Source: Chloroflexota bacterium (GTDB lineage: Bacteria > Chloroflexota > Chloroflexia > Chloroflexales > Roseiflexaceae). From it: a DNA stretch of 64,000 nucleotides. How positions within the stretch are numbered: position 1 is the first letter of the stretch; each line of letters opens with the position of its first letter. Positions 16,439 through 61,807 of the stretch are shown here, one piece after another. Under the pieces are notes generated by a model. The model was not told where the DNA came from, ran no database searches, and was given only the letters and a program-made list of their open reading frames with translations. The DNA is taken from NCBI GenBank assembly GCA_013388755.1, contig JACAEQ010000032.1, positions 1 to 64,000 of the forward strand. The letters run 5' to 3'. The translations under genes and the position numbers were made by a program.

Positions 16439-16493
16439 ACGATTGCTCCTCTCTCTCCCCCCCTGGCGCCCACTCCAGAGGTGATCATGCCCC

Positions 16494-16625
16494 GATACCG
16501 TTCAAATAAGGCGTTACGCACCGCATGGCCCCCCGCCCAACCTCCTCCCACTGGGGGAGGAGTCGGACTTCCTTCCCAGCGGGGGAGGGCCGGGGTGGGG
16601 GTGATGGGCTTATGTGAAACGTATT
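16494..16625 (+). repeat. GC-rich G4 element, copy 1
   Basis: A 132-bp MITE-like element with imperfect 15-bp terminal inverted repeats: GATACCGTTCAAATA (16494-16508) and TATGTGAAACGTATT (16611-16625). The core starts with GCACCGCATGGCCCCCCGCC and contains a G-quadruplex motif G5-A-G3-CC-G4-T-G5 at 16581-16601. It ends 4 nt before the stop codon (read on +) of the aldo/keto reductase gene, so it is that gene's immediate 3' flank. Copies 2 and 3 are at 32686-32856 and 61549-61682. No coding capacity. Confidence 0.8.
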
Positions 16626-16629
16626 GATC

Positions 16630-17598
16630 CTAATCCGCCTGGTCCCGCCAGTCGCTCGCCTGGTTGATCGCCGCCACATCCTCGGTGGTCAGGCGCACCT
16701 TGAGCGTGCCAAGAATGTCATTCAGTTGTTCGACGCTGTTGGCGCCGATGATCGGGGATGTGATCGCCGGGCGCTGGAGCAACCATGCAAGCGCCATCTG
16801 CGCCACCGTCGCGTTATGCACTTTACCGCGCTCCTCCAGGAGATCAATCAGGGCAAAGTTGCGTTCGGTCATGTAGCGTTTCAATCCTTCGGCACGCACG
16901 CTGTCTGGCGTTGCACCGCGGCGGTACTTGCCGGTAAGGAACCCGCCCTGCAACGGGCTATACGGAATGACACCCACACCCTGATCGAGGCACAGGGCTT
17001 CGTTTTCACGCTCGAAGTTGGCGCGGCGCACCAGGCTGTATGGTGGCTGCAGGCTGATGAAGCGATACAGATGCTCGCGTTCGCTGATCCACAATGCCTT
17101 GCACAGCCGCCATGCTGGCTCGTTGGAGCAACCAATGTACCGGACCTTGCCCGACCGCACCATGTCATCGAGTGCGCGCATCGTCTCTTCCTGTGGCGTG
17201 TCATAGTGCGGCCAGTGCGTCTGGTACAGATCAATGTAGTCGGTCTGCAAGCGACGCAGGCTGTCATCAAGCGCTTTCATCAAATGGCCGCGCGAAAGAC
17301 CATCGCCATTGGGGCCGGGCCACATACGTCCATTGCCTTTGGTCGCGATCACGAACAGGTGCCGGTCACCACGGCGCTTCAGCCAGCGACCGATAATCTC
17401 CTCACTGACGCCGCCAGGATTGCCGGGAACCCAGCTCGAGTAGACGTCGGCAGTATCGATGAAATTGCCGCCAGCGTCGGCATAGGCATCGAGAATATGG
17501 TACGACTGCTGCTCATCGGCGGTCCAGCCGAACTGCATTGTGCCGAGGCAGATCGGGGCGACTTTGAGGCCGGAACGACCTAACGTGCGGTACTCCAC
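16630..17598 (-). CDS. Aldo/keto reductase
   Basis: A 322-residue NADPH-dependent (beta/alpha)8 oxidoreductase. Seen: [20 protein letters not shown] at the start, [11 protein letters not shown] with the catalytic Asp and Tyr, the Lys in [12 protein letters not shown], the catalytic His in [22 protein letters not shown], and the C-terminal [12 protein letters not shown] for NADP binding. It resembles the YajO/Tas group that reduces small aldehydes and ketones; the substrate is not determined. Start: GTG 17598, five bases after a clear GGAGG; an upstream in-frame stretch to 17646 lacks a site and family similarity. Monocistronic. A dispersed G4 element begins 4 nt past its stop codon. Confidence 0.9.
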
Positions 17599-32672: not shown

Positions 32673-32685
32673 TGGATCGAGATGC

Positions 32686-32856
32686 AATACCTTGCGCATA
32701 AGGCTCGACGCACCGCACAGCCCCCCTCCCAACCTCCCCCCGCTGGAGGGAAGCCCCAGACTCCCCAGCCCTCCCCCGCTGGGCGGAAAGCCCCAGACTC
32801 CCTCCCCCGCCAGGGGAGGGCCGGGGTGGGGGCGAAGGACCTATTTGAAAGGTACC
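32686..32856 (+). repeat. GC-rich G4 element, copy 2
   Basis: 171 bp. The left terminal repeat is eroded (AATACCTTGCGCATAAGG); the right one is TATTTGAAAGGTACC (32842-32856). The core has an internal duplication (GCCCCAGACTCCC occurs twice) that makes it longer than the other copies. G-quadruplex motif G4-A-G3-CC-G4-T-G5 at 32813-32832. It ends 4 nt before the stop codon of the minus-strand hydrolase gene, the same position copy 1 has beside its gene. Confidence 0.8.
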
Positions 32857-32860
32857 GGAT

Positions 32861-34879
32861 CTAGATGGCCCGTAACGTATCGAGCACCGGCAGAAAGACC
32901 TGGTCGTAGAGTTCGTCGCGCTTCTCCGGATCACTGATCAGGATCACAACAAACGTACCACCATCGCTCTCAGCCAGGGCAATGTCGGTCGGCTGGCCGC
33001 GAATGGTCGTCGTATAGAGCTGCCAGACGGCGCGCTCGCCCGTATATTCACCCGCTGCTTCAGGCGCGCGATCCAGGTTGAACTGCCGCCCCAGCCCTGT
33101 CAGAACTTCAGATGCGGGCAATGGCAGCCGCCACTGAATGATCGCCGCGTCGCCCGCCGGGCGCGCATATATCCCCTGGCTGACACCCGTCCATCCTTGC
33201 GGAGTCACGCCTGCAAGGCCGAGGTCGGCATCACGGTAGGGAACCAGTCGTACCGGCGCGCCCGCGACCTCGAACGGCGGGCCGCCGAGTTGCGCCATGC
33301 ACGCATCGTCAGGCTTGCGCAGCGGATCGTCGAGAAATGCCAGCGTCATGCTCAGCGGACAGCCGCCATCGAGTGTGACACCGTGGCCGGCACCGGGGAA
33401 CTCGAAAAAGAAGCTGCGGCGAAGTGTGGCCGCCGCGGCTCGCCCATCATCCGGCGGCGTCGCAGGATCATATGCCCCGGCCAGGAGAATCGCAGGAATA
33501 TCACTCTGCACTGGCTGGTTCTCGATTGCCGGCGCCTTACCGGCGCCCCAGGCCGCGCAAATGTTCCAGAATGAGGTCATGTCGAACACATCCTGTTGCT
33601 GCGGGAAGGCCTCATCGGCCTGCGAAAGTTGATCGCGCGTTTCGAAGGCGATTTCGTCATAACAGCGCGCCGAATACATGACCCCATAGCTGAAATAATC
33701 ACTCTGTGCAACATTATTCATAATCAGGCGCACCCACGGGCCGAACTCCCCTTTCTGCGCCGAGTCAGCAACCATGCGCGGTAGCGAAGGAATGATGTCA
33801 GTCGAGTACAACGCCTGGAACAGGGTGCTGATCAGGCTGTCGCCATTGATGAGCACCTGGTAGCCGCGCCCCGTGAACGGATCAATCCCCGGAAGCGTGA
33901 CCGGGTCGGTGTTCAACTTCGCGACCAGGTCATAGAAGGTTCGCTCCAGATCAGGGTATGCCGTCGTGCATGCCGGGTCAGCGGCGCACCCCTGGAACAA
34001 CTTCTGGAATGCGCGCTCGGCATCTGCCGGCGTCTGTGACTCATTGACCTGCAGCGGGCGAACCGAGTCGAGAACCACACTGCGAATACCCTGCGGATAC
34101 TCGCGCATCGCCGTCAGCGCCAGGCGCGTACCATACGAACTGCCGATCAGGTTCCACCGCTCATACCCCAGCGCCAGACGCAGGTCCTCCAGATCGGCGG
34201 CGTTGGCCAGCGTATTGTAGGCCGACAGGTTAATCCCCTCGGCAGCCAGGCGCGTGCGGCATTCGAGCGCCGCCGCTTCCCAGAGCCGGGCACTCTCGTC
34301 AGCCCGTATATCTTTCGGCAACAGGTCGAAGCTCAGCCGCGTCATCTCCGGGCAGGCGAGCGACGGCGTCGAGTAGCCGGTACCACGCTGGTCAAAGATG
34401 ATAAAGTCGCGATTGGCCAGGAATGGGCGGAACCAGACATTGAAGACCAGGGGCAGGCGTTCGAGCGCATCAACGCCTGGCCCGCCTTCAAGATAAACAA
34501 TCGGATCGTCTGGCGGGTTGGCCCGCGTACTGCGAAACACCGCGACGTGTAACCGCACACCCGGCCCATCGGGGCGCGCGCGGTCCTCCGGGACGCTCAA
34601 CCAGCCGCACTCCACCGTGACGCCGTCTGGCGGCGCAAACTCGCAATCAGCCGTCACATAGCGTGGAGCAGCCGGCGCCGGCTCAGGGGTTGACGCCACG
34701 AGCGCCGTCGCGCTCGGAGCGATACTTGAGGTGACACCGGGCGTCGGCGTCGGTACGCCAATCAACGCTTCGGCTCCCGGCGCAAACGTCGGAGTGGGAT
34801 TCGGTTGCGGACCGAACGACCATGAGCATGCATTCAGCAGCAACGTGATCATTCCCAGCAAGACCAGCCGTGCACCCAT
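32861..34879 (-). CDS. Secreted lipoprotein alpha/beta hydrolase (TAP-like)
   Basis: A 672-residue exported hydrolase, related to tripeptidyl aminopeptidases and proline iminopeptidases. A lipoprotein signal ends in LLNAC (Cys18); a Pro/Thr-rich linker (about 22-75) follows. Catalytic fold: YLEGGPGVDAL (oxyanion region), FDQRGTGYSTPSLACP, nucleophile in IGSSYGTRLAL, Asp in LLAGAYDPATPPDDG and His in PGAGHGVTLDGGCP. The last 150 residues form an extra domain of unknown role (from about VRLVPYRDADL). It should cleave peptides outside the cell. Stop codon 4 nt from G4 element copy 2; the MFS gene is 83 nt upstream on the same strand. Confidence 0.88.
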   Translation of the reverse strand: MGARLVLLGMITLLLNACSWSFGPQPNPTPTFAPGAEALIGVPTPTPGVTSSIAPSATALVASTPEPAPAAPRYVTADCEFAPPDGVTVECGWLSVPEDRARPDGPGVRLHVAVFRSTRANPPDDPIVYLEGGPGVDALERLPLVFNVWFRPFLANRDFIIFDQRGTGYSTPSLACPEMTRLSFDLLPKDIRADESARLWEAAALECRTRLAAEGINLSAYNTLANAADLEDLRLALGYERWNLIGSSYGTRLALTAMREYPQGIRSVVLDSVRPLQVNESQTPADAERAFQKLFQGCAADPACTTAYPDLERTFYDLVAKLNTDPVTLPGIDPFTGRGYQVLINGDSLISTLFQALYSTDIIPSLPRMVADSAQKGEFGPWVRLIMNNVAQSDYFSYGVMYSARCYDEIAFETRDQLSQADEAFPQQQDVFDMTSFWNICAAWGAGKAPAIENQPVQSDIPAILLAGAYDPATPPDDGRAAAATLRRSFFFEFPGAGHGVTLDGGCPLSMTLAFLDDPLRKPDDACMAQLGGPPFEVAGAPVRLVPYRDADLGLAGVTPQGWTGVSQGIYARPAGDAAIIQWRLPLPASEVLTGLGRQFNLDRAPEAAGEYTGERAVWQLYTTTIRGQPTDIALAESDGGTFVVILISDPEKRDELYDQVFLPVLDTLRAI

Positions 34880-39870: not shown

Positions 39871-40028
39871 GAGACTATCCGAAAACCAGATGGTCCATGT
39901 CATTACGAGCGCGAGCGAAGCAATCTCCGCTCGCGCCGCTCGATTGCTTCAGTCACGCTTCGCTCGCTGCACGCTGTCGCTGGCGCTCCGCGCAATGACA
40001 GCATGCCCATGGGTGTTCGGATAGGCAC
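39871..40028 (+). repeat. GTGCCTATCCGAA-type element, copy B
   Basis: 158 bp with ends GACTATCCGAAAACC (left, eroded) and TTCGGATAGGCAC (40016-40028). Inside is a second inverted pair: GTCATTACGAGCGCGAGCG near the left and CTCCGCGCAATGAC near the right. It shares most of GATTGCTTCAG(T/C)CACGCT and GCTCCGCGCAATGACA with copy A (55541-55696). MITE-like; no transposase here. Confidence 0.75.
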
Positions 40029-55540: not shown

Positions 55541-55696
55541 GTGCCTATCCGAATAACGGATTGGATGGTAGTGCGCGCGAAGCGAAGCAGTCTACCAACG
55601 CGAGAGGAGATTGCTTCAGCCACGCTGCGCTCGCTTCAGGCTGTCGCTCGTGCTCCGCGCAATGACAGGGAAGCGTATCGTTGTTCGGATAGGCAC
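55541..55696 (+). repeat. GTGCCTATCCGAA element, copy A
   Basis: 156 bp with 13-bp perfect terminal inverted repeats GTGCCTATCCGAA (55541-55553) and TTCGGATAGGCAC (55684-55696). The inside is close to copy B (39871-40028). It begins on the base after the permease stop codon; the following PAS-STAS gene starts 29 nt after its right end. No target-site duplication is evident. Confidence 0.8.
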
Positions 55697-61358: not shown

Positions 61359-61548
61359 AGCCTGTTCTCAGAACGCTACGCTGACGAGCCAGTATGGAAT
61401 CATGGCACACTGCCGCAGACCGGGTGCAGCCGGATAGGCGCCACGGCCTATCCCCTGCCGATGACACGAAGTACGCGGTGGCGCAGGTTCCGCATCCGGA
61501 GATCCTGCCGCAGCGCGCGTGGTACCCGGAGGAAGGGTGGCTAGCACC

Positions 61549-61682
61549 AATACTTTTCAAATACGCCCGCCGCCCCCACCCCGGCCCTCCCCCGCCGGGG
61601 GAGGGAGTCTGACTCCGCCCCCCAGCGGGGGGAGGTTGGGCGGGGGGCTATGCGGTGCGTGAAGCCTTATTTGAAAGGTATT
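61549..61682 (-). repeat. GC-rich G4 element, copy 3
   Basis: 134 bp with terminal repeats AATACTTTTCAAATA (61549-61563) and TATTTGAAAGGTATT (61668-61682), 14 of 15 positions complementary. It is inverted relative to copies 1 and 2, and its quadruplex motif is on the minus strand (C5-A-C4-GG-C3-T-C5 on +, 61573-61593). It ends with TGCGGTGCGTGAAGCC next to the right end, matching the left side of copy 1. Confidence 0.82.
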
Positions 61683-61807
61683 GCGGCTTGCCAGCCGCTC
61701 CAACGCTGCACGGCCACTCAGGGTGTGTCAATTCGGTACGATCGAATGCCACCTGGTATGACGCGCCGCGAAAGAGAGCACCTGCGCACCTCGGACCCAT
61801 AACAAAA

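Follow-up and report, generated by a model that had tools for sequence, protein, structure and literature searches.

What kind of repeat carries the same G-rich core at three sites of one Chloroflexota contig, how it was dispersed, and whether that core serves any purpose of its own are the questions raised by the 64,000-nt stretch analysed here (hereafter the window), which is contig 7 of a 5.08 Mb genome assembled in 145 contigs. The earlier note had described a MITE-like family of three elements with shared inverted ends and a shared core. All three were located where that note had placed them, with each end one base wider, the complete element reading CAATACC...GGTATTG. The six end sequences differ from AATACCTTTCAAATA by 0-3 mismatches each (chance expectation 0.33; none of 100 shuffles gave six), and the core GGGGGAGGGCCGGGGTGGGGG occurs three times in the window with 0-1 mismatch, where 0.00 occurrences are expected. 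The individual features are as follows.

16493-16626, plus strand: MITE copy 1, 134 bp, CGATACCGTTCAAATA...TATGTGAAACGTATTG; apparently older, ends degraded, aligned with the family
16569-16601, plus strand: G-rich core of copy 1, with degraded pyrimidine stem, purine stem and putative third strand or G4 motif
16627-16636, no strand: flank beside copy 1; duplication beyond recognition, 3/10 identical
32675-32684, no strand: left target site duplication of copy 2, GATCGAGATG; 9/10 the same as the right copy
32685-32857, plus strand: MITE copy 2, 173 bp, CAATACCTTGCGCATA...TATTTGAAAGGTACCG
32800-32832, plus strand: triplex-type core of copy 2, CCCTCCCCC-GCC-AGGGGAGGG-CC-GGGGTGGGGG; 8 predicted triads, 0 mismatch
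32858-32867, no strand: right target site duplication of copy 2, GATCTAGATG; holds the stop codon of a 672-aa alpha/beta hydrolase gene
61538-61547, no strand: left target site of copy 3, TGGCTAGCAC; 6/10 the same as the right side
61548-61683, minus strand: MITE copy 3, 136 bp, inverted; the minus strand reads CAATACCTTTCAAATAAGG...TATTTGAAAAGTATTG
61573-61605, minus strand: triplex-type core of copy 3, CCCTCCCCC-GGC-GGGGGAGGG-CC-GGGGTGGGGG; 8 predicted triads, 0 mismatch
61684-61693, no strand: right target site of copy 3, CGGCTTGCCA

Copy 2 owes its greater length to a partial duplication of the inner hairpin unit, while copies 1 and 3, judged by their eroded duplications, look older or altered. 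The 21-mer G5AG3CCG4TG5 is exact in the core of copy 1, and a triplex arrangement there needs three mismatches. A search for Rfam families in the window returned one tRNA and nothing else. A second MITE-like repeat was also seen in the window, at 39873-40026 and 55543-55694, with ends CCTATCCGAA...TTCGGATAGG and inner GTCATTACGAG and AATGACA stretches.

The family extends well beyond the window. Across the 5.08 Mb of the genome, the ends gave about 173 matches with at most one mismatch (79 forward and 94 reverse; none for a reversed-pattern control), and the core gave 126 matches at up to three mismatches as compared with three for its reversed control. When copy 3 was used as the query, at least 40 other elements were retrieved from the same genome at 85-91% identity, mostly at full length. 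The ends conform to CAATACCTTTCA(A/C)ATA(AGG) as terminal inverted repeats of 16-19 bp, and the elements, typically 136 bp and mostly 134-138 bp long, contain no gene. The prediction that further copies with conserved ends would be found was thus borne out; element counts for this genome, here and below, are taken among the matches listed and the stretches fetched. Most apparent cores without ends proved to belong to truncated or degraded MITEs, whose right-hand end is still recognisable by eye. Plasmid records yielded no match, and the end sequence was found in a single open-access paper, which was unrelated. Many of the contigs end within one of these MITEs (e.g. L031, L050, L057, L060), and such breaks probably explain part of the fragmentation of the assembly. 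Four contig starts (L058, L122, L292, L296) run from a shared leading sequence, such as ...AAGTCTTGACACGCCCACGGAATGTC...CTCTACCCTTGAGAG, into MITE cores, which may mark a further repeat or a join made in assembly, and several family members (e.g. L003, L005, L027, L030) adjoin ends of the second MITE-like repeat mentioned above.

The mode of dispersal is recorded in the flanks. Among 72 end pairs from fetched loci of this genome, a few of them spurious, the identity between left and right flank was 0.753 at a length of 10 bp and 0.16-0.29 at all other lengths from 4 to 12, and 26 pairs displayed perfect 10-bp duplications. Since the signal exists at 10 bp only, the boundaries of the element are fixed as CAATACC...GGTATTG. 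The duplicated target site has the consensus NNNYTAGNNN, the commonest central tetramers being CTAG (31), TTAG (24) and CTAA (22) of about 122. Taken together, the inverted ends, the constant 10-bp duplication, the many dispersed gene-free copies and the existence in relatives of insertion sequences (IS) with the same ends strongly support the identification of the three repeats as MITE copies.

Those insertion sequences came to light when the end search was extended to other genera, which also carry the end sequence. The earlier note had proposed looking for a transposase with the same ends, and this expectation held for relatives, with no such gene found in the genome's own assembly. A class-wide search revealed a complete IS with exact ends and a single 483-aa ORF in genome G091 (L173:1411-2955). 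Another complete IS, likewise with a single 483-aa ORF, lies in G056 (L172:1444-2925); its end, CAATACCATTCAAATA, carries one substitution in 16 bp, and it is flanked by a perfect 10-bp duplication, TCTTTACGAC. In a third genome (G004), one IS4-family transposase is split into two halves (233 and 277 aa, with an 18-residue overlap) on two contigs, each of them broken within an element that has exactly these ends. The G091 and G056 transposases score 171 and 198 bits against NF033592 (cut-off 115) and carry PF13006 and PF01609 above the cut-offs. According to De Palmenaer et al. (2008, PMC2266710), subgroup IS4 is characterised by the end consensus -AATR--------WTW----, a duplication of 10-13 bp and a size of 1.4-1.65 kb; CAATACCTTTCAAATA fits the consensus of their Table 1, and the 10-bp duplications of both the MITEs and the G056 IS fall within the stated range. 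The partner IS also resemble the subgroup, as described there, in size and in having an Nterm_IS4 and a DDE domain in a single ORF. They differ in the YREK signature, Y(2)R(3)E(6)K, of which Y, R and E are present (YHERWEIE, YHERWESE) and K gives way to D or A; the window elements further differ in lacking a transposase, and the target consensus NNNYTAGNNN does not appear in the passages of PMC2266710 on which this comparison draws.

No homologue of the partner transposase was found in the 145 contigs of the genome itself, which leaves the MITEs there orphaned as far as the assembly goes; a transposase source within the host genome is usual for MITEs, though it does not strictly define them. 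Four PF01609 matches of this genome were considered as mobilisers, and none has CAATACC ends within the fetched sequence, which reaches up to about 1.5 kb to each side; an ISAs1-like and an IS5-like ORF (family names by sequence reading) were rejected on this ground, as was a degraded IS4-like transposase whose ends are different. The latter gene (L064:1058-2311, at about 82.4-83.7 kb of contig C8) is frameshifted and has the inverted ends CGCATGTTTGACTACCGTACAGAA.

The same ends recur across the class with different contents. Twenty-four of 158 Chloroflexia genomes contain the 16-bp end without a mismatch (reversed control, 0), and nine of 400 genomes of the phylum, all of them in this class, contain the 19-bp end without a mismatch; a contig scan, which may omit the genome itself, named Oscillochloris, Candidatus Viridilinea halotolerans, an Ardenticatenaceae and an Anaerolineae bin as hosts. 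About 100 elements or element ends were read in other genomes, and the ends are constant, 10-bp duplications are frequent, and several unrelated types of core lie between them: G/C-rich double hairpins (G028, G049, G061 and G063; less regular in G004 and G026), a ACCTCACAGGTC palindrome (G041, G065), a GCGCAAAGGCGCAAAGG-type core (G010-13, G065, G066) and further types. In G065, which has 105 exact ends (54 and 51), the duplications are often centred on CATG rather than CTAG (e.g. L210, L270-L278), and the target preference may differ between lineages.

Given a family with defined ends and duplications, ends in common with complete IS4 elements and exchangeable cores, all of which are observed, the explanation that we favour, at a probability of about 0.87, is that we are dealing with non-autonomous MITEs of a Chloroflexia IS that belongs to the IS4 family and resembles its IS4 subgroup. 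The IS transposase would recognise the 16-19 bp ends CAATACCTTTCAAATAAGG and insert the element at NNNYTAGNNN, duplicating those 10 bp. In cis, the ends alone seem to be required, which would account for the many unrelated cores found between the same ends in different genera, and the core most probably rides as a passenger. The successful core of this genome is an imperfect palindrome containing two G/C-rich hairpins, with a putative G-rich third strand on the outer side of each. The partner transposase presumably moved the copies and was later lost from the genome, or is missing from the assembly. Because no homologue was found, the link to IS4 rests on the relatives, and the lack of a conserved K in YREK also speaks against it; a repeated IS could have gone missing from an assembly of 145 contigs with many breaks inside elements, although unique flanks would then be expected, as in G004.

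The nature of the core deserves separate consideration. It can be written as a putative G-quadruplex, and a G3+ quadruplex motif is present in 57 of the 59 end-defined elements listed for this genome. Judged from its base order, the description that fits better, and is more specific, is the class-II intrastrand-triplex layout known as BoxC, PIT or TM. Using a simple custom script that required at least eight triads, at most one mismatch and the order pyrimidine, purine, third strand, the triplex arrangement was scored in 46 of the same 59 elements. Of 200 dinucleotide shuffles of the consensus core, 76 (38%) contained a G4 motif and none the triplex arrangement, which is why a hairpin plus triplex motif describes the core more specifically; shuffles of the G061 core gave 43 and 0, respectively. 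The G-rich strand CCCTCCCCC-GGC-GGGGGAGGG-CC-GGGGTGGGGG reads as pyrimidine stem, loop, purine stem, loop and third strand, with a T in the third strand mirroring the A of the purine stem. The core is predicted to form a triplex, and the whole element is predicted to fold as one long hairpin (z of -5.9 as DNA and -7.0 as RNA).

The same succession of pyrimidine stem, loop, purine stem, short loop and G-rich third strand defines the class-II TM motif, earlier BoxC/PIT, of Holder et al. (2015, PMC4666352), who demonstrated by NMR that the isolated E. coli strand adopts a triplex and not a G4, obtained a duplex when the complementary strand was present, and saw no stable triplex in their in vivo footprints. 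Besides this order, the core shares with E. coli motif 1 (type B) 28 of 33 positions without gaps, and its opposite-strand motif pairs have CC and TT/TC second loops as in the E. coli repeats. The strict TMECO consensus is not matched, however, the third strand being GGGTGGGGG instead of GGGNGAGGG, and the pair topology is reversed: the MITE has its hairpins in the centre and its third strands outward, whereas E. coli pairs have the hairpins outside and the third strands inside. For these two reasons the core is not classed as TMECO. The E. coli BoxC loci were likewise rejected as members of the same MITE, since the eight loci checked have the reversed topology and no CAATACC ends. Holder et al. 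reported no mobility genes around TM motifs and no such link, whereas the motif here lies inside a MITE. Among other repeats, and as far as the parts of the papers drawn on describe them, MITEAba12 (PMC6382973) is a comparable short non-coding IS-derived element of another family in other hosts, and the G4-forming repeats of Xanthomonas and Nostoc (PMC4692102) are similarly dispersed and G-rich with G4 potential, yet are simple sequence repeats with short units and not mobile elements bounded by inverted repeats.

The earlier note had further suggested a function for the quadruplex or a need for it in mobility, and this part is not supported. The idea that the G4 is a working part of the MITE, required for transposition or kept by host selection, draws on the retention of four G3+ tracts (loops of 1-7) in all 47 aligned copies, where 57% would be expected at the mutation rate of the rest of the core, and on an overall substitution rate of 0.021 in the PQS guanines against 0.045 in the mirror cytosines, other G/C positions being more variable as well. 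Nevertheless, private substitutions, which occur in one copy only and mostly postdate insertion, are alike in the two (0.0088 in the PQS guanines and 0.0077 in the mirror C-tracts), which gives no indication of selection once the copies had inserted, and conservation as evidence of selection was dropped on this comparison; the copies share a history and are not independent. The excess conservation of the G-tracts concerns subfamily-level changes common to several copies; constraint on the source copies, or chance, could account for it. Moreover, same-end elements lacking a G4 are common and have good 10-bp duplications in G010-13, G027, G029, G041, G065 and G066, some of them perfect (e.g. L271, L274, L275, L284), and a 71-bp copy in the genome itself has lost the G4 and retains a perfect duplication. 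As these elements are mobile, the G4 is not required for movement, and with the motif arising so readily in shuffled cores we consider a functional quadruplex improbable. More remote still is a REP/BIME-like or other non-transposon dispersed repeat, which the short, palindromic, numerous and mostly non-genic copies might bring to mind: the sharp ends held in common with an IS and the 10-bp target duplications already contradict it, and cores are swapped while the ends stay constant.

A role for the triplex or hairpin core itself, for instance in ending transcription or in structuring the 3' end of mRNAs at stop codons, for which it would have been amplified and recurrently captured, is less improbable than either, but still unlikely. 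It would be in keeping with the strong predicted fold, with the recurrence, in several genera, of IS4-MITEs that have TM-type cores (the genome itself, G000, as well as G028, G049, G061, G063 and one G004 element) and with the position of the copies. Of the 61 unique elements listed, 28 lie exactly 3 nt after the stop codon of an ORF with 100 codons or more, the stop falling within the duplicated site; with a limit of 120 codons, 23 flanks have this offset and each other offset from 0 to 39 has 0-2. Two of the window copies sit at stops, those of an aldo/keto reductase gene and of the alpha/beta hydrolase gene. However, the YTAG preference combined with avoidance of genes predicts such placement: among the non-genic target sites of the window, four of eight are stops, small numbers that depend on greedy gene calls. 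Active targeting of stop codons was rejected accordingly, since these counts show no excess, and target preference together with the loss of insertions within genes is enough to explain the pattern. As the duplication restores the stop codon, insertion at a stop is harmless to the reading frame. Furthermore, PIT elements are cited in PMC4666352 as having neither promoter nor terminator activity in E. coli.

The IS4-derived MITE with a passenger core therefore remains the reading of choice, and it offers a bacterial MITE system with constant ends and exchanged cores across genera, in which the role of the core is testable by swapping cores between identical ends. A wider and rather doubtful proposition is that BoxC/PIT triplex repeats are cargo of IS4-type MITEs in Chloroflexia, and perhaps elsewhere, the core having been retained in several genera for a function that would serve the element or the genes at whose stop codons it lies. 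If true, this would give a spreading route for triplex-type BoxC/PIT repeats, the dispersal of which through bacterial genomes has so far been unexplained.
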